A stretch of 64,000 nt of DNA. Origin: Ascidia mentula. Taxonomy: Eukaryota; Chordata; Ascidiacea; Phlebobranchia; Ascidiidae. Location of the stretch: positions 10,599,001 through 10,663,000 of the forward strand of contig OX387197.1 in assembly GCA_947561715.1 (NCBI GenBank), written 5' to 3'. The notes under the pieces were generated by a model. It was given only the letters and a program-made list of their open reading frames with translations. It searched no databases and was not told the DNA's origin. The position numbers and the translations under genes were made by a program. Position 1 is the stretch's first letter, and every line of letters starts with the position of its first letter. Positions 1-17,200 of this stretch are shown one piece after another.

Positions 1-40
1 TTTGTAACAATTTGGCGTGTTTAAACTTGTATGTTTTCAG

Positions 41-3000
41 TTCCGTCCGTTCCACGCAATGTGAGCGTGGTCGAACTCAGCGAAGAAATGGCATCTGTGC
101 AGTTTACGCTTCCGTCAACCAGTTTCTACAGTCATTATTACGTCACGTACCAAACAGCAGATAACAATACGCGACCATTACAATCGTCTGAAGTTGCCTT
201 GAACAACACAGGAGTCAACCAAATCATCAACGTAAGTAATCACAGTTGTTTTGACTACGTAATCAAATGTTATGATACATGCATTTTTTTTTCAATAGCA
301 ATTCTTATCGTGTAAGTTTGTTATGCGACGCCCTTGGAACTTGAAAGTATGCTAACCATTGTATCATGCAAAACAATTGTTTTTTTACTTTATGCTGGTA
401 CGACGCGAGACAAATTGGTGACAAACTTTCGGATACTTCAAATATATTGTAAAATTTTGCATGTGGATGAATAGATCTATCCGTCTCAGATAAATTTCAT
501 TTTACCAGGACAAACAGTTAATTTAATATGCAGATTACAACATCTAAGTCAGTTTTTATTTATTTTTACATTTTTGCAGCATTATATTACCGACCTGAAG
601 TCTGGGGCGTTGTACAATTTCACTGTTACTGTATTAAGTCGGATGAGTCCAATCAAAGACATGACGTCAATTTCAAGTCGAGTCACTGCAAGAACAGGTA
701 AAATTCTTATGTCATGTCACTATGGTGCAGACCTTCAATGTACTTTTCTTGATTGTTCAGTGCCTCCTCCCCCAGTCAACTTCGAAGGTTCGTCAGCCAG
801 GGGAACGATCTATCTAAAGTGGGGAGTTCCCCCAAAACTATACTGGATTGCAAGAGCGCATTACGTCATCGACTATTACCCAGAAAAATCTCCGTAAGTT
901 TGAGACTCTAATGATAAAAGTCTAATCAGACAAGGATGCAATCTCTCGTTGTTGATGCCAATAGATATGAGCAGCGATAGTTTTCCACAGCGGAAATATT
1001 TTTTCTTTCGTGTAATATACCAGCGGTTTTCAAACATTTCGCGTGCGACGCGTTTTGAAAAGATTTTCGATATTATCGACGAACAATTAAACATCCTCTA
1101 GGACGATTTGTTCCATTGTTTATAGTTTTTGGTCACAGAAGGCTGACCTAACCTGTTATTTATCTCCGTTTAAATTGTTACGCGACTCCTTTGGAAATTC
1201 AAAAACGGCGCACAGGAAGAGTACCTGTACAATTCCCCAAATCATGTTACGTAGTTTACCATTGCTTCAAGATGCGAAAAGGCGCTTTCCTCAATGCATT
1301 ATCAACTACTTCTAACATATATTATTGTTTGACGTGTCTTACGTGTTTTTTGATTTTATGGTTTTGTAGCAAGAACAGCAGCCGCACTTGTCAAAACAAG
1401 GGCCAAAACGTACAGCAGGTGACTTTACGAAACCTTCAACCTGGCACCGCTTATCAGATCACAATTAAAACTGTCGCCGGAAGTCTCTGCAATTCTCCCG
1501 CAACTTCATATGATGACGTCACGTCCAGTTCACCCGCCGGCCCAATCACAGTCCTTACACGTAACGCAGAAAAATTATCGAAAAAATTGCGAATGACTAA
1601 TGTGTATTTAAATTGTAGAGCCCAACTTTCCTAGTGTCCAGTTCTGGGAACAAGTAACGCTGAACAGTGTTCGTTTGGCCTGGAACGAACCTGGCTTGAA
1701 CCCTGACAAGATCGACAAATACGTCATTGATGTTGAGAAGCGGCAAAGTAGAAACGGGTCCAAGAATTATCGTGTCGAAGATTCCATCGAAATATCAAAG
1801 AGTGGGTGGAAAAATAAAACATATCACAACAAATTTTCATTTCAGTTTAAATCTTACCTAAAGAAACTGCTTCAGAATATAATGTTTTTGTTGCTGCCTG
1901 GCATATTGTAACTTAATAATCTGTTCTTCTGGCAAAGATAAAACGTAACTTTATTCACCGACGTTTCGCCTGTTATTCAACAAGGCTTGCTTCAGAATTG
2001 TCACAGATGCATGGATTTTCTTTTCGTACACGTGATAATTTGGTCGTTTTCTTATTTTTCGTAGATCAAACCTATTACGACTTAAATCTGGCACAAGGTT
2101 CGACGTTCAGAATAAACATCACCACGGCTGTGTTGTCAGGACAGCAGAGGAGGAGGAGTATGGTGGTACCAGGAGTCAACTCAATCAACGTCAAAACATG
2201 TACTGTTATTTTGCCAAATATGTTATATTCGACGAACGCAGATGAATTTTCTTGGTCATAATATTCAACACAAATTTCGCGATAAAAATAATTTGTGTGA
2301 AACATTTGTGAAATGAACCTCACCCAAGTAACTAAATACATTGTTTAAAATCTCGTTATTAGTCGTTTACTTATATTCATACTAAATTTCCAAACCTAAT
2401 TTCTGAACTGTGCAGGGGACCCGTACAACGACCACTTTCCTTACCCATCTCTGAGGTGGACGTTTTCAACATGCAGAAGAACAGGAAGGTTTGGACCTCT
2501 TCAATCTCTGTGCGATCTCGCGTACAAGGGAACGAGTCTTGAGAATCTCGTGATTGTGAAGAATGGAATCCAACGATGGAGAGCGCCGGTCGAAGGTGAA
2601 ATACACATGGTTTCCCAATCTGTCACAAACCACTGGCGTAGTGATTGTGTAACGCTCCTTTATCAATTGAAGCCTATTCTTAATAACAAAAATTGATAAC
2701 AGAAACGAAATAACCCAAATCATTTCATGACAATTGGATGAAAAATACCTTAAAATGTTGATGTGATGTAATTAGTTTAACAGCTGTATTTTGTTACTGT
2801 TTTGCATAACTTATAATTTCATAAACCATGTTCAGAAAGTTAGTATGTCAGCCTAATTTAAACATTTTTTGTTTTGTTATTGTAATTATTCTTCCGAAAG
2901 CTCTTTAACGACTGTCTTTGTATTTGTTTTGTACATGACAGGAATCTTTTTATCAATATTCATATTACTCCACCTATTTCACCACCAGGTCTTTATCGGA

Positions 3001-5651
3001 TTGTGGCAGCTGGTGCTGGTTACCAGGGTCCTGGAGGTCTTGGAGCAACTGTGTCGGGATTATTCTCACTAAAAGAGGGCGATCGTCTGCACATAGCGGT
3101 TGGTCAAGTTGGCAGGGGTCGCGGTACAATGTTACACGGCGGCGCGGGAGCGACTTACGTTGTTGCCGACGATGTTGAGAACCAGGGTTTCGCCGATATT
3201 GACGCAAGTCAAGTTATGCTTGTGGCAGGTATGATGATGTTTTATATTGAATAAAGACCGGTGGACTACGTGATGGGTTACTATTCGATCGGTAACCTAC
3301 TGCAGCACCCAATCCACATGAGACCTTTTATTTATGTTGGTTGCGAGAAATTTTATATTGGCCTTACGCAAGTGGTTTTACAGTCTTGTACTTCTCAAAA
3401 AAATTGGGGTAATGTTTTTGGAATAATATGCATCAGTATATCTATTAATTGATATATATACATGGACTTAAACGCAGGTGGAGCAGGCAGCGCCGTTTTC
3501 GATTCGACTCCCACGAATCAATCTTCGGGAAGACTGAGTTATGATGGCGGCAACGCATCGTACGTTGGCATAGAAACCGGTCGCGGGGGTATGTGGGACG
3601 GAGTGGGAAGTCCCCACGGGGTCGGTGGCGAGGTTGGGACTGGCGGTGGGGCTGGAATGGATGGGTATGCGCAGGCGCCTCCCGTGATCCGACCCGGTGA
3701 CAGGACGTTTTCTGCCTGCGGATATTTCCCAAACAGGGGCAACGGTGAAACAATTGAGGAGGCCGATTTAGGAGACTACCTGCCTTTACAAGGAGGAAGG
3801 TGGGAAGAATGAACAAAGCAATATTGTAACTCTGAGAAGTAACCGATATAACGCATTGTCAGAGTAAATCAAGTACCCCCTGACGCAAACTTGGTTTTCA
3901 CTTTACCATAGGTGTTTATTATATTATTATCTAATACAAATTTGGAACTGCATCTAATAAATATTATTATGCAAGTAAGAAATACAAAAAATTTACAACC
4001 TCCTTTGTTCAACTCAGATACGAACGTTCGGCGTTTCTATTCTCGGAAGGGGGGTTCGGGGGTGGCGGCGCAGGGTACATGAGCGGATCTGGCGGAGGCG
4101 GGGGATACAGTGGTGGGGGAGGTGGACCCCCTGGGGGTTACTCTGGTGGCGGTGGGTCATTCATTAAATTCACCGGTGGTCAAGAGTTGGGTGAAATTTC
4201 TAACAACCTAGCGGGGTTTGTTATCATCAGTGTGGTTGGTGAGTTCTTATTTATATATAATGTTTCTTATTTACTCTGACAATGCGTTTTTGAGGTTTAG
4301 CAATATCCGCCGCTCGTCAAATGTAAAACAAAATTTGGTGATCAAACTGCTGCTTTTCATTTCTTCTTAACACGAACCTAAAGCGAAAAGTTATTTTTTT
4401 CATAATGATCTTGAATGTAACGCTATGAAACTGTGGCAATTTACTATTTGAAGTTAAACATATCAGCAAATTTCAATTATGAATTTACCAACTTTCAGGT
4501 CTTCCCGCAACGCCACCTGTACCTTTAACTTTGTACCTTGTCATTGCTGCCATAGCGGGAATTGTGTTTACACTATTGTGTGGTGTTTGTCTTTATGGTG
4601 TTGCAAGGTAAAAAGACCCTTTTTCACAAGACTTTTTAGCACAAACGTTACTAAATATTATAACTGCGGGTTTTACCAAAGGTGCACGGATAAATACCTC
4701 GACAAACAGATTGAGGAAAAAGAGAAAACATCCAATGATTCAACGAAGTTGGTTGCAGCCAACAAGGACATTTCCGGGTATTTATTGTGCGGTTAATCAA
4801 ATACTGTTGTTTCTTCCGTTTTGACAATGTCGTGGTTTCAGGCCCATACATTACAACAACGGTGAAGCTGCAAGTACTTCCTTTCAAGAAGGAAAGTCAT
4901 CAGGTAACAAACTAAGCTAGTAGCCTAGCCTAAATATGAGTCTGGTAATCTATTGATGTTGTATTTATCAGCTTGTTTTCAACGACTGCAACACCCAAAA
5001 TCTATTACAACAAGTTTTTTTTAACACGACAGGAACGTGTTAAACTTGTGCGATCACATTCAAGTGAAAGTAGATTAAAGATTTTTTGCAATCGACTCTC
5101 TTTTGAAAGATCCAAGCGACCCAGTTCCACTTAACAACGATGCGAATAAGGAAGTCAACGAAGACCTTATTCCCGAGCATTCAGCACTGGAACGTTGGAG
5201 GTCATCAAGTAACTCCTACCCGAACCCTGTTGCTCAGCCAATAGACGATGGGCCAGAATCGGACAGCGAATCGACAGCCAGCAGCGTTTCTTCCATGGCC
5301 ACGGGAGTCAACGAGGGAAAATTCGTGGTAGACACACCCACCGGAAAGTTGCGTTATCGGGGTCGCAAGATTTCAAGAATGAACTCGTCCTTTACCGGGT
5401 TTGAAAGCACGGACGCCGAAACTTCGACAATGGGAGGCCAGGAGTTCAGCGACGATGACGAAGATGGGAGTTTGCCGCCCCCGCCACCGACCCCACCTCT
5501 TACCCCGGCAATCCCCGACGAGCTCGTCAGCGAGGAACAGAAACAGGATTTTCGACAGAAGCTAAATATGTTTCACGAGATGGCGCTGCGCAGTCGTGGA
5601 CCTGGCGCAAAGTTGGGACAGCCGACCTTCGTGCCGAGCACCAATCTATAG
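41..5651 (+). CDS. FN3 / ALK-type glycine-rich receptor without kinase (5' partial)
   Basis: This is the 3' part of a type I membrane protein; the gene begins upstream of the window. Exons: 41-231, 580-697, 761-893, 1370-1560, 1619-1801, 2065-2199, 2416-2595, 2989-3228, 3478-3799, 4018-4238, 4499-4607, 4682-4777, 4842-4903 and 5110-5651. All phases agree and give 906 complete residues. Three fibronectin III domains (residues about 1-316) use two exons each. A segment with LRWTFSTC and GIQRW follows, then a glycine-rich block to about residue 637. This order matches the extracellular membrane-proximal region of ALK/LTK. A hydrophobic helix (about 646-670) is followed by a 233-residue acidic, Ser-rich tail with PPPPPTPP, possibly an SH3 ligand, and no tyrosine kinase. 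The exon 5 donor (1801) was chosen by phase; a second GT upstream is weaker. Being a receptor or adhesion molecule is inference; the ligand is unknown. Confidence 0.85.
1960..1995 (-). other. Degenerate hammerhead-ribozyme-like motif
   Basis: On the minus strand this intronic stretch reads CTGAAG, then a GCC...GGC stem with a bulge and an inner TGTT/AACA helix, then GAAACGTC. That is the order of a hammerhead core (CUGANGA, stem II, GAAA). One extra base breaks the CUGANGA box, so it is probably inactive. The flank TTATTCACC next to ACGTTTCG resembles the copy near 55838. Confidence 0.3.
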
Positions 5652-6562
5652 AAGAGCGTTCACAAAGCAGAAGAGACTTTCGATTTTCACGGCAGCTCAA
5701 GTTGGGATCAACAATGGGTAAAGAAAATTTACCAACCAAAGGTCACCTCAAGTTTGTTTTCCGATTCTTTGTTTGCGTTGCAGGTGCGTTGCGCCTACCC
5801 TACGTATTTTTTTACAAAACATATTTTTGATGATCATGTCGTGTTTGCAATATATGTACCTGTTAATTTAGAGGTTTGCAGCGTCACAGGTACAGTGCAA
5901 TGTGCAAAAATCGTGCCATGCTACTCACTTCCTATTCACGTGATTTAAATTTCAGTTCCTCTTTTACCTGTGCAAACAAACCTGTAATTTCGGCAAGAGA
6001 CTTTCCTTGATAGTGTTTAATTTGTACGAAAAGTATGTGGACCATGGTGCTCCCTTTTTAAATGGCTCAACAACTTTAGTGTCTAATAATTTTGTTTAGT
6101 GAAATAAAATTATCAAAATGTGAGGTTATGTTTTCATTATTCACAGTTTAAATAAAATCTGAAGGTTAAAGTAACTCTGGAGATATAGAGTATGTGGGCC
6201 ATGGTGCTCCCTTTTTACATTACTCAACAACTTTCGTATCTAATAATTTTATTTAGTGAATTAAAATAGCAAAATCTGAGGGTATGTGCTCATTATTCAC
6301 AGTTTAAATAAAATCTGAAGGTTAAAGTAACTCTGGAGATATAGGGTAAATTCTGTTGCTATTTTTGAAAGGTTTTTGCATTAATTTGATTGCAGATACC
6401 AGAAAATCCATTTGTTGCAACACAACAAAAACATTGGCATGAGCAAGAGAATAATTTATAAAAAGTGTATATTTTGAATTTTTTTTAATTAAAACACTCC
6501 TTTGAAGCAAAATTTGTGATTTTGTTTAACTGTTCAATCAAGAAAGTGTTGTACAAAAGAAC
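5652..6562. other. 3' flank of receptor gene and intergenic spacer
   Basis: No coding exon is seen. It should contain the 3' UTR of the receptor gene (an AATAAA lies at 6103-6108) and the promoter of the NACHT gene. The only clear structure is the 157-base tandem duplication listed separately. Confidence 0.6.
6033..6345. repeat. Tandem duplication, two 157-base copies
   Basis: Copy 1 (6033-6189) and copy 2 (6190-6345) share long identical stretches, for example the CCATGGTGCTCCCTTTTTA start and the AAGTAACTCTGGAGATATAG end. A few substitutions and short indels separate them. It is not coding. Confidence 0.85.
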
Positions 6563-9500
6563 ATGGCATCATCTAGTAAGGTATGGAAACAGATCTGCAA
6601 TGCTTGGAAGTTTTTTTTTTTCTAAAAAAAGGTATAGTCTAAAAATGTATGTTTGCAGAACTCAGAAACAGTTGTCAAAGAAAATAAGGTTTACCCAGGT
6701 ACGATTGTAAATAATAAAGATATGTATTTGTAAAATAGAATATTAGACTTTTTGTGAAATTGCATACTTGGGCATTAATCTTAGGTAGTTTGAATGCTGA
6801 CCAAGTTTTTTGCTTGTTTTTGTACAAACTGTGCATTTAGCTGAACATCTTGTTTAATGCAGAATGTTTTTAGATACTCACAATTACTTCTTACTGTGTA
6901 TATTGCAGACATTAAATCAGTTTTTTCTTTTATTAGATGTTCTGGAAAAAGTTATGGAAGCTCAAAAACTGCAGATTTCACATGAACTTGACGAACTGGT
7001 AAAAACTGAATGCTTTCCAGGAATTCGTAAGGTCAACTTTTATGAATGTTCTCCATTGCAAGAGTTTGAAGATTTAAAGCAAAATAAAACCTCAGATAAC
7101 AAACAAAATTTATCGGAAGTTTGTAAAGATTTAGTGCAACACTCATTATCAGCTATAGTTGGTCCATTTGGTTCAGGGAAGTCAACCATTGTAAAACAAC
7201 TTGCACTAAATTACTCTGATCCAACAGAAGATCGTGTTTGCATTCTGCTAAAATTTGCAAATATGAATTACAAAAAAGAAATAACTTTAAAGGAACTTTT
7301 AATCGATTTTCAAAACCCTGATCTTTCAGAAAGTGAAAAGCAATGTGCATTTGACTGGTTTCAAGAGAACCAAAAATGGCTTTTAATAATTTTTGATGCA
7401 TGTGATGAAGCTGATTGGTGGATTAAAAACATGGGGCATGCTGCCCCAAAGTATGATTACCACACTCGGGCTCCAGTTTGGCATGTAGTGGGCAATCTAT
7501 TAAATGGCCAATTACTAAAAAACAGCAACAGGGTTTTTACTTCACGATACTCCAGCATGTTGAGTCTACACAAGTCATATCGCCCAGATGCTTGCTATGC
7601 ACTTAGTTCTCTTAGTGATGTTTGGGTTCAAAATTTGATGCTTTCACATGTTTCAGAAGAAGCCAATTGCAAAAATCTTTCACAATGTGGAAAAGAGCTA
7701 ATTTTTGTTGGTGGAAACCCCAGTTATTTGCAGTTTATTTTTGAAAATGTTGGCAAGTACAACACCTTGACAGCTTGGATGAGTGGTATTGTGGAGAACA
7801 TGTACAGTAGCTCTCATTCTCGTTCATCTTCCTTATTCGATAAGTTGGATAAGGTAAAAGAGTTGGCATACCGTGTAAAAAGCTCTGGTTCATGCTGGTT
7901 TTCATTCCGGCTACTGGATGAAATCCAGTTGGACATGGAAGCCATTCAAGATTTCATTGTAGCAACTCCTGGAACAAAATGCCAAAAAGATAAAATAATT
8001 CGCCAACACATTCGGCTTCGTTTCTTTGACAAAATTTTGATGGATTTCTTGGCAGCTTGTCATGCGCTCAAATTGGATGATACATCATTCCAAGAGTGGT
8101 TAAATAACCAAATCAATCCTCAGATCATAAGATTTGTTGCAGGATTGTTGTTTCATCCCATTTGTGGTACGTCTTTATGAAGTTAGCCATGTGTTTTGCC
8201 TAGTTAAAATTTAACTAGAGTAGCAATCTAAACACAACACCTTTTTATATAATTAATAAGAAACTATATTTTTTAATCGTATATATCTATTACCTAAACC
8301 TTCTTTGGAGTCAAATTTTAACTTACAAGGTCATTTTACCACTTTTATGTAAGTTTGACTTTAGTTTGAGTGCCTGAATATGTTCAACATAAGATGATTC
8401 CTTTTTACAACCAACATTGTACTTTTAGATAATGTCTCAGGAGGGTGTAAAACTGGTAACAAACCTCTCCTATTTGAAAACTATTTGTCTGAAAAATTTT
8501 TACACAAGAATTGGGATGAGGGTATGTTCTCCATAAAATGGAATTATATTCAAATGTAAAAAAACATGCAAATTTTTTTAGATGAAGACTCAACTCTTCT
8601 GCTCCTTAAGATTGTGTTAGAAGGAGGAAGCAATCTGTCAGAGAGGTTTTCTGAGAAATTTCCATCGATTTTTAAATTCTCAAAGCCATTGTTACAACAT
8701 GATGTTCAGGCTCTTTGCAACTGTCTGCGAACAACCCGACTTGATATTGAACTGCTTATGCTGAATGATTGTGACTTAAACCACTTTTTTTTCCAACAAA
8801 TTGTTGGGGCTATGCAGCAAATGCATGTCAAGGTAAATTTAAAAAGTGTTAACCTCATTTGTTGCATGCTTAAATTGTTTTTTTCATATACTGTCATTCT
8901 AATAATTGCTGTAAATGTTATTTGCCCTGTTTATGTTGTTATCAATGTTATTACATAATTACCTGCAGATCGACACAGTTGATTTTTCCAACAATCGACT
9001 AGAGTCCGAAAGCATTACAGCTCTGAAACCAAGATTTCCTCAAAATATTGGAAGAAAACTTATAATGTGCAATTGCATAAAAATAGAAAGTTCAATGCAA
9101 ATTTACAATAAGTCCAAACGAGATTTGAATGACACAGAAATTCAACACATGTCCGAACTTAATATACAAAAGGTACATAGTTATATACATATTTTTTGGT
9201 TAAGTTTAAAAGCATATTTATACATTAATATTAATCTGTTTGTATGTAAAGATGCTAATCTGCAGGTGTAAACTACTATAAAATCTAAAAAAATATTGCA
9301 AACTGCTATTTTTTAATATGATATAAAATCATTATTGTTTTTCAGAACATACATATGGTTTTCCAAGCCACAATCAATTCTGGTATGTTGATTGTACAAT
9401 AGGATATTACAATATAAACAAGTTATTTAACATTTCGTTTTAGAAAATTTAAGTGGGACCAAGGCATTTTTGACTGTGGATCCAAATCTCAAGGAGGAGG

Positions 9501-12500
9501 AAAGCGTAAATACATTTACTACACCAACAACCCAATTTGTTGAGGTATGCTTATTGTTTCACATTTTACATGCAAGAAAACAAGGTAAAAAAAAGGAAAG
9601 GAAAGCTCAGTTTTGAAAAATAAAACAAAACAATGAAGTAGTTTTATATTTGCAAACTTAACTGAATTGCATAGAACCCGTTTGAACAGTAAAATGTAAA
9701 TTGCATTTAAATAAAACAATCAAAAATTACAATTTCAACAATACAAAAAAAGTAAAATTTGTTCTGCAACTTGCATATAAATTAATTTTAAATCTGTTTG
9801 CAGTCAGAACAAGACAAAAACCATGCAACTGCAACCAATGTTACAGCTGAGTTAAAAAGTGGTTAGTATTAATTGTATATACATTCTGAAACAAAATATA
9901 TAGCTCCTTATTTTGGCAGACTCTGTAATTTTTTCTTCTGTTTATGAAAAACTTGAAGAAATTGCAAAGGGAACTGCTGGATCAAGAATTCACAAGTAAT
10001 AAATTCTTCCCAATTTAGACGACATTCCAACACCTGTAGAAGTGTATAAACCATAATGAATAATGGGATATCATTGTGAGACTTTATCTACATAAATGTG
10101 AAAGAAATGCATTTCAAAGTTTTTAAATGATCTAATTTGGCTTTGCAACCAAACTTGCTTGTTTCTTTTATAGATGTCGTGCAACAGGTGATGGCAAGCT
10201 GTATGTTACCAAAGTTTTGGACACTGCATTGTACACATGTGAGGAATATTGTGACCGTGAAGCAGAATTTCTGGCCTCGTGCAAACATGAAAACATTGTT
10301 AGATATTACAATTATTGTCATGAGGTGAGCAGAAACTGTTTTTATGTAGTGTTGCCTAAGGTTTAAAAACACACTGTAATTTGCAGAATACTAAAGCAAC
10401 TGCCTACATTGTGATGGAGATGTGTGTCACTTCTGTGCATGATGTAAGTTTACACAAATTAAAATTGTATTAAAAAATCAGTTACTATCAGACTTATTGC
10501 TAAAACTGACATGTGTATTTAACTTTGTTAATTGTTTTTACTTGTCAATATACTTTGTATGACTAATTTTGAAAAGATTTGACCAGTTTTGAAAAGTTTT
10601 ACTTAAATGCCTTCATATGCATTTTTGGTTATGCCAGGTTACAAACTTATCAAAAACATAGTAATGATATTTAATTTTATCTGTTCAATAGCCTTCTTCT
10701 CACCACTAAAAAAATCACAAACCACACATTACATAACAAGCAAAATATGTAAACATCTTAAAGTTTCACTTTTTTAGATTTTTTTCATTTTTCAGTAACA
10801 TTTTTTAACACATAAATTTTTGATTTAATAGCTACTACTACTAACCTTGGAAACCTTGCTAATATTTTTTAGTACATCTATGATGGCAAATATCTTGATC
10901 CAAATGGAAAGTTAGTTGAAACGGGTGTTAAATCTTTTCTGGGAGAAGTTTCATTGGTCAAAATATTTAAGGGAGCTGCCAATGGGGTCATGTACCTCCA
11001 TGAAAAAGAAATAAGTAGGTTTCCTGAACTTAACAATTATATTAACGTATGTTTGAAGACATGACTGTCAGGACACTTTTGTGATAAAGCATATAAAACA
11101 TAATTTAAAGTAACAAGTAGTAAGAATAGATTTAGTTACAAACTTTTTGATTCAATGTATGAAATGTAAATTTAAAAAATGGGTAACTAAACAAAGCAAC
11201 AATGCAGTTCACAGAGACCTGAAGCCACAGAACTTGTTGCTTTCATGTGAACATTATGGTGTTGTTGTAAAAATTGCTGATTTTGGGATTTGTCGCAAAC
11301 TGGCAAAAGACAAGTCATATCACAGAAGTGCTTCACGTAGTGAACAATCTTTTCTTGCTCCAGAAAATTACAAGGGAGTTTTTGTATGTAAACCATTTGG
11401 TTTATTTTAAAGTATTACTGAATTGATTTTGCAACATGTTTACAGCAGATTTAGGAGTTTGTGAAAGTAGTTATACTTCTTTACAAAGTCTCGATGTACA
11501 TAAAACACACAGATATCACATTATTTTTGTACGAAACAGACCAACATGTCATGTCATAAAAGAATTTAATACAACAAAGTCATAAATTGAAAATAATTTC
11601 TTTGATTTATAAAATCAAGCTTTTCAGACATTCAAATATTCAACACTTGTTCTGACTAAGCTTCCAAGTAGCTAAAGAGTGCTTTTAACATCAGACAATC
11701 ATTTTAGCTTTGACTGTTATTGCAACTGGCGTTTTATGTGCACAAAGAATATTTATTAATACAATGCTGAATCGTTCAAAGTTTTATAATAAAAAACATG
11801 GGAAAGTTTGTAGGCCATATTATAAGGAAATTTAAAGTCACATGGTTAAAATTATTAGGTCATAAAAACATCACAGGAACACCTGATCATATTTATTTTC
11901 AATTAATACTCGTCCTTCATATTTATCCTATTCAGAAAAAGAAGTCAGATGTGTACAGTCTTGGCCTGGTTTTCTACTCTGTTGCTTCAAATGGAAATCA
12001 TCCATATGGTGATGAAGATGAACAAAGATATAAGATGACGAAAGGTTTACAACCAAATCTAAACCCTCTTAAAGGTGAATATAATTTTGTTCAAAATCAT
12101 ACCTGATTAAAAAAATACCTTCCTTCTCCTGAATATTTAAATGCAAGTTTTTCAGAAAAATGCACTGAACACTACATTACGTTGAGTAATTTAATTGAAG
12201 AGATGATAAAACACAAGATAGATTCTCGACCAAGCATTCAGATGGTTGCCAAACACCCAGCTTTTTGGGAATCAGGAACAAAAGTGTTCTTTTTAAGGGT
12301 TAGTGAATTTTGCATCGCATAATGTTTGTATATGTTTAATAATTATTAATCTTTTAGGATGTATATATGTACATTGAAGACAAAGCTAAAAAGACACCTG
12401 GTCTCACCCAGAAAATGAATAAATACTCTGAAAATTTGATTAAGGATGGTGGCACCCAAAGCAAGAGTTTTTCTGTCTCACTTAAAAACTTGCCTTCCTC

Positions 12501-12913
12501 AGTAAAGTCTGACAAAGAACACCCTGTGAGAAAATGCTCCAATGTTGAAGAATTTCTTAAGATTCTGCGACATAAAGTAAGTGATAGAAATAAGGTTTTT
12601 CAAAAAAAGTATTCTAAAAAATCAAATTAAGGTGTGTCAATTCATAATAAAGAAAGGGGGAACAAAAAAGCTACATTTAGATAGTATTTAAATTTAAATG
12701 GTTTGGTGTCGAGATAGTTGATTTAAATCCATTTAGGCAGTACATGGAAATCTTACAAAGGATGAGAAAGTTGATTTTGGATGGGATGAAAAGAACGGTT
12801 GGAACAAGTTTGCAAATATATTTGTTGAAGAATTCCCCCAACTCCTTGTGCATTTGTATGATGTTTTTCAGGACAAAGAAATTGTCAACAAACAAAATTA
12901 TTATCCCATATAA
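6563..12913 (+). CDS. NACHT - LRR - protein kinase - KEN RNase protein
   Basis: Eighteen exons join in consistent phase to give 1103 residues: 6563-6580, 6659-6698, 6937-8166, 8429-8521, 8582-8832, 8969-9172, 9346-9382, 9444-9544, 9804-9861, 9920-9995, 10174-10324, 10387-10443, 10873-11014, 11208-11383, 11936-12074, 12156-12298, 12358-12576 and 12737-12913. Residues 1-94 show no known domain. NACHT follows: P-loop GPFGSGKST (95-103), Walker B IIFDACDE (to 177) and a downstream FTSR. Leucine-rich repeat-like sequence lies at about 500-600 and a Ser/Thr linker at 613-690. The kinase (690-970) has Lys716, HRDLKPQN (821-828), DFG (844-846) and APE. A KEN ribonuclease domain follows directly, joined by HPAFW as in IRE1/RNase L. 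In KEN, Arg1043 and His1048 keep the R-x4-H spacing of the IRE1 active site, while the usual Asn is His. It is probably a cytosolic ligand-triggered RNase; no signal peptide or membrane helix is seen. Confidence 0.92.
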
Positions 12914-14288
12914 AATGTGTTTTTGTGCCTTTTTTATCATTGATTTTGCTTATTCACTGTAAAATTTGGCTTTTAAAGTCATCATGCAATGAGAAACATA
13001 AGCCAGCATCCAAAATTAACAGTCGCTTACATTTTAATTTTTTTGTATTGTTTTTAATCACTGTATCTCTAAGTGCACTTTGTCTTATACATTTCATTTA
13101 TCATGCAACTGTACATAACTACATGTAATTGTGTCATTAAACCATTTCCAAGCAACATAGTTGCTGTCAGCAAAAGTGGAATGAGGATTATTGAGAACTT
13201 GTTTACCAATTTAATATGTCGGCTCCAAACTGGAAAGCAAGTTTTCAGATATCATAGTCATTGACGCCGCAGTTCCAATTTGGTGCTTATTTTTAAGACT
13301 TGTGCTTGTTGCCAGGAACAATGACATGAAAAGTTTTTTTTAACTACACCGGGATTTGAACCCAGGATATCCTGCTCACAGATCCCGATCAGGTTTTCTT
13401 CTTGGTTGCTTGTTGTCATCACAAGCGGGTTCTTCCTCTGCTCTTTTGGTGTGAAATAAATGCCTAGTTTTAAATATGTGCGACAGGGGGGCAATCCAGG
13501 ACTTGTTTCCCAGTAAAACCACTCTCAAACAAGGAAATCAAAAATTAATGTTACATTCATCATTTTAATCTCCGATTCACATTTCACATATTGCAAAAAC
13601 AAAGTCACAAATTATATCCACTTCGACGACACGGTCACATAGATCCTGTTTTGTTGGAGCTGCTCTGGACCGAAGCATTGTCACCGGTGAACGCCTTAAA
13701 CCTGTATTCTAATTCTGTATTACTTGACATCTTTTCATCCAGAAGTTGCCTTTGCAGCTCTTTGCTCTGCACACAACGATAGCAATTAATTTTCACCTCT
13801 TCTCTGGTTTATGCCGGAATATACTACTACACCGGGTCACTAAGTTTTCGCCAAACTTGATCCACATATAAGACTGTGTAAAACAGAAATATGTGTGATC
13901 CGGTGTAAAAATATCTTCTGTTTATGCCACTTGGTCAATTCGCAGTGTTTAATCGGCAAATAATATCAGATGAGTTGAAATTTTGAATCCACATATTGAG
14001 GGGAATGTTTGAGAAGTTAGTTCGCTGTTGTTGCAGCCATGTTTACTTACAATTGCGAGATACCACATTAAGATATTGACCGAAAAGTGTTTTTTTGCAC
14101 TTTGGCACGGTTGTTTAAAAAAACATAATACCCTTAATCCTCACCACAAATATTTGTATAAATTAGTGTATTACAAGGAAAAAAAATTATGTGCGAAAGT
14201 TGGTATAGTATGGACTATTATTGCTTGTTCTAAATATTTTGAAATTTCTAGATGAAAAACTGATTTCACGATAATTTTGTTTTTCCCA
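12914..14288. other. Intergenic spacer between convergent genes
   Basis: No supportable exon. At 13343-13365 the minus strand has a tRNA T-arm or B-box-like GGGTTCAAATCCC, but no tRNA can be folded around it; it may be a SINE relic. At about 13829-13908 there is an imperfect palindrome (ACACCGG...CCGGTGT enclosing GATCCACATAT...ATATGTGTGATC). Confidence 0.5.
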
Positions 14289-17200
14289 TTATGGTTTTAA
14301 ATAACTTTTCATCATGCCAATGCCCTTATATTTAAAGCTAGGCTTCAAACAATGGCCAATGAAAATTTTCAGCACCTGCTGCTGCATTTCAGGTTGGTCT
14401 GATGTTAAATCGACGCTTCGGAGTTTTCTCATCTTCTGATGGACTTCATCACTGTGTTGCTTCTTTCTTTGACGAATTTCTGCATCCTTTAAATTCCTGC
14501 ATGGGAATAATGATTGCAATTACCACGTAGCTAATTATGTCTAAAAGCTTATCCCTGCTTCAACGAAATTGTTGATATTTAGAAACGCCCCGGGCTGCTG
14601 TGGACCTTGTATAACCTGACAAGGTTTATCATTTTCTATCTGTCTACATTCCACTTCCACCCGTTGATACAAAAGGCTGCATTGTATGTTTTTAACATTA
14701 TCAAGTACAAGTCTTGTTTTAACATGCCATTCTTACATCGCTACGCTGTTCGGCCGGGATAATTTTCCAAAATAAGGCACAGGGTTAAGCTTTGTCGTAT
14801 TATCTTCCTGTTTCTCATCTTCCTCAAGCTTCGTAATTTCATTGATTCGGTTCGGAATCTCAACAAACATATGACTTCTGACTAAACTTGCACGATCTGG
14901 CAACTGGAGTTGCCTTTTGATTATGCTGCCAAAAAGTTACTTTTATAAAAGAACTGTCATTCTGGCACATAAATTACGAGATTTTACTGCAATCGACGTT
15001 TCATCTACCATCCAGCAAGACTTCGTCAGGGTTATGTGGCATAATTTAAATTTACAATGCCGGGAAACAACAGTAACACTATAGTTTCTTTTTTGTCTCA
15101 CTTTTGTTTTAGGCTACTCAAATAAATATATCATGAATCCTGAAATACATAAGTTTAGTTTGTTTGTGTGCTAGGAGTGTAGTAAGATGGATAGCTTGAA
15201 AATGACCATGAATGGAAGGAACACCAATAATTATAAGTTCAAACTAAGTTATATTTACACTTTTATAGGTTTTTATGGATAAACATTTTGTGTACCTGTT
15301 GGAGCCCTCTGAAGGTAAAAACTGTTCCACTTTTTCCTCTCGTACTTCGTTGTGATGTTGAACACTGTTAAGGTCAGTCCCATAAGGTGCAGGCTTTATG
15401 TTAATGTCTGTGGGTAAAGGTTAAGAAGGAAAATTGCTTAGGAAAAGTGGAAGATATATGTCAGCATAAAAAAAAACCAACCGGTTTTGGATCTAGGGAG
15501 AAAACGCTGGCGTCGTCTTGTTTCGCTTCTCCAGTCTTCCAATGCGATTATGTCTCTGAAAGTACAGGCACGGGTCTATAAGCACAGGGGCTTAGAAACC
15601 AAAGGTATTTGACTTGAACTTCAAATGTATTGATCCAGACTTTTTTTTTACGAATGATGACATGAACCTTTAAACTTGTTTCCCTGTTAGTGACCTTTGC
15701 TATTACCTAATTGCCTGAAAATTTTCACTTAAAATTTTCTCACAAGTTGGGTACTATCCCAATCCCTTTCTTGCCTGTTATAGTGGGTTTGTTGGTTGAC
15801 TGCGCTTGACCTTTTGTACACAACAAGTAGCCATCACTTCAGTTGTTGCGGTGACCATTATTTTATTAATGTAAGTCATCGGCAAGTCTTAAAAAAAAGG
15901 TCAAGCGCGTTCACACCAGCAAACCACAGAAAACGAAGCAAAGGTGGACTGGACGAATATATAAACTGAGTCAAGAAAATACTGACCATGATGTATATTA
16001 TGTCATAAGTGTTAAATGTGTTAATTTCAACATAGTACTCAGTTGGGAGTTGAATAGTAATAAAATATCACAGTGTTGTAAAGTGACTTTAAATGCCTAA
16101 CCAAAAGCTCTACATGTTGACCTTCTTTAAACTTTAAAGCACAGCGAACCCACTGCAAACAATGCACGCAAATATGACACAGAGCTAATTTTACACAAAT
16201 ATCGAGCAGCAACCACTTACAAGTTATGTTCATAACAAAAGCAGCTATGTACAAGTGGATTTACCCACAAAATTTGTCATGCACCAGGTTTGGGTGCTAA
16301 GGGGAAAACAGGATGGCACTTTGTATTGATACGAAACGTTGCTTCAGCTTATGGTTTAACAAGTGATCTGACTAACTTTCTCCGCTGGTCAGCGTGAGCC
16401 ACTTGAAGCTCTTTCATAGATCGAAGTTGATCTTTGTGTTGATCCTCCTGTTGCCGCAACTCAAGCAGAGAAAGTTCTTTTCCTCTCCGTGATCTGAAAC
16501 AACGATATTTATCAATGACTAGTTTTTATCTCTTGGTAAAGCACACAGGGAGAAAACAGGTAAACCAGCAGCCAAGGTGGCTACAATAAGACAAGTTTAC
16601 CCTGTAAAAAGCATACAATAGTATTCTTCAACAAAATCTATGCATTTATTTGGGTGCGAAAAGCTTTGAGTTACTTAAACTGAATATAAATGCCAAAGCC
16701 ATTATGCTTCTTATTAAGCAGACATTTCGAACACAACTGTGTTCATCATCAGCGTTAATTAAAAATGAGTTGCAGCAAAGTATGTACTTACACAGGAAAT
16801 TTTGACAATTTGTTCATAATTGAGGCAATTGCAAAACAATTTTATGCCAAAAAACTGCACAATTTGGTGCACAAATCTTTTTATTCCAATATGCAACAAC
16901 CAAGCTAGAGGCTCATTCAAACCTGTTTCTCAGGCCATCGATTAAGCTATTTTGCTTTCCTCGAAGATCATGAAAGGTTGTTGGTTTGTGAAGCATCGCA
17001 GTTGTTGGCGTAAGGGCATGACGCTGACATGAAAACGAACACAAGCCAGTTGATGAGAAAATGTGTAAACTGAATGATATCCAATATCAAACAGATTGTG
17101 GTGTTTAGTAAACATGTAAATCTACACCATTCACCATTGAAACCTAACCCCTTGTTGTGTATACAACACAATTTTACACAACTGACTTGATATCATGTAA

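Follow-up and report, generated by a model that had tools for sequence, protein, structure and literature searches.

A 64,000-nucleotide stretch of the Ascidia mentula genome (the window; C1:10599001-10663000) was found to contain one open exon chain, at 6563-12913 on the forward strand, in which a NACHT domain, a short leucine-rich repeat (LRR)-like part, a protein kinase and a KEN ribonuclease (RNase) domain follow one another in that order, as indicated by Pfam and by the exon model. The product is probably a cytosolic NLR-type receptor with a built-in output, in which oligomerization would switch on a kinase-gated RNase. The architecture, the motif residues, the ancestry of both halves and the retention of the reading frame in a second copy of the gene were all computed. 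This order of domains had been proposed in a preliminary description of the DNA, and it was recovered here. Positions given without a contig name are those of the window.

Gene Model and Second Copy

The exon model, rebuilt from the sequence, comprises 18 exons that splice in frame into 3312 nucleotides encoding 1103 residues. All internal boundaries carry GT and AG, the frame contains zero internal stops, an ATG stands at 6563, and the stop codon ends at 12913. The coordinates, exon number and agreeing phases of the preliminary description were thus reproduced.

A search of the window's own genome (195.8 Mb, 79 contigs) revealed a full-length second copy ∼20 kb upstream on C1, outside the window. 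All 18 exons of this copy have equal length and the same splice dinucleotides, and no indels were present in the 3312 coding bases, compared with 12 indel events in the introns (binomial 1.4e-4). Of the 12 intron indels, nine fall in intron 14, and the copies hardly differ in exon 3; when everything up to exon 4 was dropped, the corresponding value was 1.4e-3. Retention of the 18 exons with zero coding and 12 intron indels indicates that the gene model goes beyond chance. This copy might be a true duplication or an uncollapsed allele and in either case provides a second full reading of the gene.

The duplicated units measure 19.5 and 18.6 kb and are separated by 0.5 kb, in a stretch of the assembly without N. 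The duplication (window 1-15194 and C1 sequence upstream of the window) includes sequence 5′ of 6563, and its pieces are 88-97% identical. Exons 1-3 (1288 nucleotides) are one base apart between the copies and exons 15-18 are 4-7% apart, a contrast such as might be seen after gene conversion or crossover. The ratio of non-synonymous to synonymous substitution rates (dN/dS) was 0.55 across the whole coding sequence and 0.49 for the kinase-KEN part, with values of 0.23 for the kinase (8 non-synonymous and 9 synonymous changes), 0.59 for the LRR-like part (7 and 3 changes) and 1.06 for the linker (4 and 1 changes), all of which derive from small counts. Constraint on exon 3 is not measurable because the copies differ there by one base in 1230, which leaves dN/dS undefined.

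Domain Content

Scanning of the whole protein against Pfam gave matches to NACHT at residues 90-260 (52.4 bits against a cut-off of 26.7, E 7.2e-14), to Pkinase at residues 686-961 (139.8 bits, E 1.5e-40) and to Ribonuc_2-5A, the KEN family, at residues 970-1093 (21.0 bits, E 3.9e-4). Residues 958-1103 scanned alone scored 25.6 bits with Ribonuc_2-5A, and the KEN stretch of the second copy, also scanned alone, scored 24.9 bits, both above the cut-off of 23.3. The three profiles named as a check in the preliminary description therefore all matched, KEN rising above its cut-off only when scanned alone.

Exon 1 (6563..6580) supplies the start codon and residues 1-6, and exon 2 (6659..6698) supplies residues 7-20. 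Exon 3 (6937..8166; residues 20-430) encodes NACHT and a downstream helical region. As a single sequence, this exon matched the structures 5irl/5irm (E 3e-4), which are labeled in the PDB as an uncharacterized protein and which we take to be rabbit NOD2. A profile built from 21 of the genome's NACHT exons, including exon 3 of the window gene, matched NLRP1 and NLRP3 structures with E to 1.6e-45; the window exon is 14-28% identical to the other rows, and the strength of this match may come mostly from those rows. In the same 21-row alignment, the three Gly and the Lys of the Walker A motif GPFGSGKS (7161..7184, residues 95-102) are invariant, as is D176 of the Walker B region IIFDACDE (7386..7409, residues 170-177), in which D173 is nearly invariant. 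Residues 1-61 gave no Pfam match at all, to CARD, PYD or DEATH included, and from residue 62 onward only P-loop families matched.

Exon 4 (8429..8521) encodes residues 430-461. The LRR-like part begins in exon 5 (8582..8832), and a second repeat was recognized by eye in exon 6 (8969..9172, residues 545-612). The LRR-like region is the weakest point of the preliminary description: about two degenerate repeats by eye and the similarity of part of exon 5 to NLR exons described below speak for it, whereas no LRR profile in Pfam matched the protein. Likewise, no Pfam match to an ankyrin repeat or a lumenal domain was present in the protein, and HEPN_DZIP3 matched neither the protein nor the genome, the genome search having been run without a positive control. 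The best 19-residue mean hydropathy was 1.22 and no membrane helix was found, in agreement with the earlier claim. Three linker exons follow, namely exon 7 (9346..9382), with M616 as the final Met ahead of M763, exon 8 (9444..9544), which is rich in Thr, Glu and Asn, and exon 9 (9804..9861).

When residues 679-1103 were compared with the PDB, 2720 sequences matched, mostly as kinases. IRE1 occupied ranks 1-16 among the best 60 of these (3fbv, E 1.2e-33), with alignments that extend through KEN and, for 3fbv, reach residue 1091; RNase L was absent from the same best 60 of 2720. KEN alone, as a single sequence, gave zero PDB matches. The effector had been described as of the IRE1/RNase L type; the likeness to IRE1 stood, and from the 16 top PDB matches together with the introns and kinase residues the effector half looks derived from IRE1 more than akin to RNase L.

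Kinase and KEN Active Sites

The kinase begins with the Gly-rich loop of exon 10 (9920..9995) and continues through the N-lobe of exon 11 (10174..10324), which contains K716 and, by motif reading, the αC Glu, and through exons 12 (10387..10443) and 13 (10873..11014). Exon 14 (11208..11383) carries the HRD loop HRDLKPQN (11210-11233), DFG (11279-11287) and APE, exon 15 (11936..12074) encodes the C-lobe, and the kinase ends in exon 16 (12156..12298). KEN is divided between exon 17 (12358..12576), with R1043 and H1044 at 12568-12573, and exon 18 (12737..12913), with H1048, the predicted catalytic residue, at 12743-12745 and the stop codon. K101 of the P-loop, K716, D823, N828 and D844 of the kinase and R1043, H1044 and H1048 of KEN are identical in both copies.

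Residues 1043-1048, RHKAVH, form an R-x4-H motif with a polar residue following the Arg. According to excerpts of a study of yeast Ire1, H1061 is the key catalytic residue, accounting for at least 3x10^5-fold of catalysis, Y1043 contributes ∼tenfold, and N1057 and R1056 have a proposed role in holding the phosphate (PMC3149027). Alignment with yeast IRE1 placed H1061, N1057 and R1056 opposite H1048, H1044 and R1043, respectively. The main KEN residues are thus retained, and two secondary ones are not.

Ancestry of the Two Halves

An IRE1-like gene is present on C70 (kinase-KEN exons at L023:4877-7996; motif RNKKHH), and the window kinase-KEN is 30% identical to it across 377 aligned residues. 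Four of the eight kinase-KEN introns, those at the 3′ boundaries of exons 12, 13 (phase 1), 14 and 16, occupy the same alignment column and phase in the two genes. Three more of the eight agree in phase but fall in gapped stretches, where they are offset by 1, 2 and about 11 columns; the last intron differs, with phase 0 against 2 and an offset of 3 columns.

Exon 3 is preceded by AG and followed by GT, with phase 1 at both ends. By eye, same-phase AG and GT were present at the corresponding places in the genomic sequence of all six NLR relatives displayed (L030, L041, L050, L031, L005 and L008, picked from the 21 NACHT alignment rows). Three NLR loci were also compared with exon 5, and in two of them an exon shows 33-35% identity to part of it (E 0.013 and 0.007 by tblastn; 4.5e-4 and 1.4e-5 for a direct comparison of the chosen exons); exon 5 and the matching exons share the same AAG/GT phase-0 end.

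Since the phases of the NACHT exon are those of NLRs and kinase-KEN shares intron positions with the IRE1-like gene, the halves look to have separate ancestries, with NACHT from NLRs and an IRE1-derived kinase-KEN. With the similarity of exon 5 added, the gene has the look of a fusion between an NLR gene and one of IRE1 type, with three short linker exons in between.

Relatives in and beyond the Genome

The 1103-residue query gave at least 48 matches in its own genome (42 of 569 candidates scored). Among those listed, the 14 on C1 are the window gene and its copy, and the other 34 span residues 15-438, that is, NACHT only. Downstream of 3 of these 34 NACHT loci, 5.4 to 6.7 kb contained no kinase or KEN match better than E 0.27. 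This search is blind to divergent kinase-KEN sequences, as it missed both the IRE1-like gene on C70 and the kinase-KEN gene on C2 described below.

A search of the genome with the NACHT family gave at least 95 scored matches from 317 candidates, all above the family cut-off. In 14 prokaryote controls, the same search produced matches in 11, above the cut-off in 3; because 11 of the 14 matched, the E-value alone is not a strict measure here. The NACHT family of this genome (L003-L022, L030-L037, L039-L053 and L057-L059) is large, and many of the matches sit in dense arrays on C71.

The KEN family search, at a lax threshold, identified three places, of which two are exons of the IRE1-like gene and the third is a weak site on C2 (19.5 bits, E 0.12); its sensitivity to divergent KEN domains is low, as the KEN exons of the window gene itself were missed. 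The C2 site belongs to a third, divergent kinase-KEN gene with HRD and DFG (∼1847531-1851800, reverse strand; L062 and L063). Its motif RSK/VQH is split by an intron (slash; read by eye), with the R-to-H spacing of Rx4H, and the position of this intron is that of the window gene (RHK/AVH) and not that of the C70 gene. In ∼5.7 kb upstream of the C2 gene, no frame of at least 80 residues was NACHT-like by eye and no tblastn match to the window NACHT was found. The C2 gene suggests that an IRE1-derived side branch may have been the source of the effector of the NLR.

Two weak OAS1_C matches above the cut-off were observed, at C70:7565004-7565138 (L060, 26.0 bits) and C73:264907-265101 (L061, 25.6 bits). 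These are possible OAS-like genes, with a bearing on whether 2′-5′-oligoadenylate (2-5A) is made.

Beyond this genome, a whole-protein search of 5.8 billion proteins gave 84 matches (7989 candidates scored), swamped by kinases, and NACHT and Ribonuc_2-5A were absent from the Pfam annotations listed for the 84. Residues 20-620 gave no match at E 1e-3 among 7995 candidates scored, and residues 945-1103 gave none among 129. These searches depend on exact words in common and extend only to close relatives; the shortness of that reach is evident from the failure of region 20-620 to retrieve even NLRs.

Sequence 5′ of the Gene

A direct repeat of ∼160 bases in two copies lies just 5′ of the start codon (6032-6348) and is apparently present in the upstream unit too. 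Further 5′, an open frame at 1152-1631 weakly resembles fibronectin type III in Pfam (21.7 bits, below the cut-off), and 7 further open frames on this side of the gene gave zero Pfam matches.

Discussion

As far as the genome sequence goes, the fusion appears to be real and unusual, and would be a variation on the NACHT-HEPN theme. It shares with IRE1 (ERN1) the kinase-KEN module, the catalytic kinase residues, the Rx4H motif and intron positions of the IRE1-like gene of this genome. However, the lumenal domain and membrane helix of IRE1 are replaced by a NACHT/LRR-like sensor with no membrane helix, the RNase-site Tyr and Asn are not retained, and the last intron is placed elsewhere. With RNase L, it has in common the order sensor, kinase, KEN and the lack of a membrane helix, but the ankyrin repeats by which RNase L binds 2-5A have no match here. 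RNase L is described, in the part of a review available, as a pseudokinase (PMC4730318), whereas K716, D823, N828 and D844 are present in the window protein, the kinase of which looks active.

NLRs of the NLRP/NOD type share the NACHT domain, as seen in the match of the 21-row profile to NLRP1 and NLRP3 structures. They carry CARD or PYD at the N terminus, whereas the effector here is C-terminal, the LRR-like part is very short and the winged-helix His is missing. The polarity is therefore that of RNase L, with the sensor first and kinase-KEN last, and unlike that of classical NLRs, in which the effector comes first.

NACHT-HEPN fusions (DZIP3/hRUL138 and CXorf38) also combine a NACHT ATPase with an RNase of the HEPN superfamily in one protein; their HEPN domains are of the DZIP3 or CXorf38 type, as excerpted from a HEPN survey (PMC3710099), in contrast to the KEN placed after a kinase in the window protein. 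The same excerpts list fusions of kinase and KEN that also carry ankyrin, CCCH, UBI or BRCT, and fusions of NACHT to HEPN of the CXorf38 and DZIP3 types (PMC3710099). From 17 to 83 NACHT-HEPN(DZIP3) proteins are given for anthozoan cnidarians in part of another report (PMC8260672), and STAND NTPases and HEPN RNases figure in immune-type fusions in part of a TRADD-N survey (PMC8195603). Among the papers listed by full-text literature searches, none showed a NACHT-kinase-KEN architecture; the terms Ribonuc_2-5A and NACHT co-occur in 0 papers of the library searched, a narrow test as the former name is rarely printed. In the portions available of the Mnemiopsis genome paper and the TRADD-N survey, no KEN domain was found by term (PMC11797021 and PMC8195603). 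The earlier remark that no described system of this kind was known thus agrees, for the exact architecture, with the papers listed, but the gene is less isolated than supposed, because NACHT joined to other HEPN RNases had already been described (in parts of PMC3710099 and PMC8260672).

By analogy with the families concerned, the protein would have a ligand, an oligomeric state, a dimer-switched RNase and a biological role, and the following mechanism may be proposed. Ligand binding would lead to nucleotide exchange on the NACHT ATPase and to oligomerization, and the oligomer would gather the C-terminal kinase modules via the flexible linker of ∼66 residues. Back-to-back kinase pairs would autophosphorylate, like IRE1, and this pairing would in turn pair the KEN domains and permit metal-independent RNA cleavage at the Rx4H site. 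Decay of RNA or an arrest of translation would follow, most likely in antiviral or antimicrobial defense or in cell suicide. Such a gene could have arisen by the joining of a kinase-KEN unit of IRE1 descent to a single member of a large NLR family.

Several observations weigh against the proposal of a receptor with a built-in RNase. The exon model, and with it the status of a single gene, is known here from the genome sequence alone. The same architecture was not found outside this genome by searches that reach close relatives only, and the fusion may be young and lineage-restricted. The LRR-like part is very short. D384 stands where most aligned relatives carry the winged-helix His, and this His is also missing from the aligned relatives L012 and L018. 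For KEN, the whole-protein score of 21.0 is just below the Pfam cut-off of 23.3, and the dN/dS between copies of 1.03 (17 non-synonymous and 4 synonymous changes) is as compatible with relaxed constraint as with an arms race. Y1043 of yeast Ire1 has no counterpart in the alignments and no Tyr is nearby; the position falls in a gap of the alignment with yeast IRE1, and R1030, at the same spacing from the motif Arg, lies opposite the Tyr of the C70 IRE1-like gene. The Asn that follows the motif Arg in IRE1 is His (H1044) here. KEN RNase activity is accordingly considered plausible, and not more because its dN/dS is about 1.

The strongest alternative, although unlikely in our estimation, is that the fusion is real but that KEN is failing, or binds RNA without catalysis, so that the output would be kinase signaling. 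The contrast in dN/dS between KEN and the kinase (1.03 and 0.23), the missing Tyr, the Asn-to-His change and the marginal profile score speak for this reading. On the other hand, R1043 and H1048 of Rx4H are retained in both copies, the same spacing recurs in the divergent C2 gene (RSKVQH, by eye across the intron), and His is, with Asn and Asp, among the usual residues after Arg in HEPN domains with an intact motif, according to the excerpted survey (PMC3710099).

Less likely still is an active RNase that serves outside immunity, for instance in RNA decay linked to stress or development or as a splicing switch paralleling the unfolded protein response. The effector half looks IRE1-derived and no result here points to a ligand, both of which would suit such a role, but the sensor half comes from a strongly expanded NLR family (at least 95 NACHT matches) and neither a lumenal domain (Pfam) nor a membrane helix (hydropathy) was found. 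Strong expansion of an NLR family is usual for immune receptors.

That two adjacent genes, one NACHT-LRR and one IRE1-like kinase-KEN, were falsely merged by a model read from the genome is improbable: exon 6 read into intron 6 does stay open to a stop ending at 9271, AATAAA occurs between the halves at 9619 and 9710, and the linker changes are few and unconstrained (dN/dS 1.06 on 5 changes), but linker exons 7-9 retain length, splice sites and frame in the second copy, which has both halves in the same order, AATAAA or ATTAAA occurs 21 times in 6001-15000 and so says little, and, because no Met lies between residues 616 and 763, a complete kinase made separately would require a start in exon 7 or earlier, or an unseen first exon.

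Returning to the receptor with a built-in RNase, we see about an even chance that it constitutes a one-protein immune circuit, in which NACHT oligomerization leads to kinase-gated, IRE1-type RNA cleavage via a captured IRE1-derived effector and which combines the separate NLR, OAS and RNase L of vertebrates. In excerpts of the review cited above, these vertebrate systems are linked, as products of RNase L activate NLRP3, and RNase L activity rises when NOD2 is overexpressed together with active OAS (PMC4730318). If the reading is correct, this ascidian would couple NLR sensing directly, in cis, to the cleavage of RNA. The gene would allow direct tests of an NLR oligomer driving a C-terminal effector, and it would offer a natural single-chain design for a sensor-triggered RNase. 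More broadly, kinase-KEN would be a module switchable by very different sensors, namely the endoplasmic reticulum lumenal domain in IRE1, 2-5A binding in RNase L and a NACHT oligomer here.

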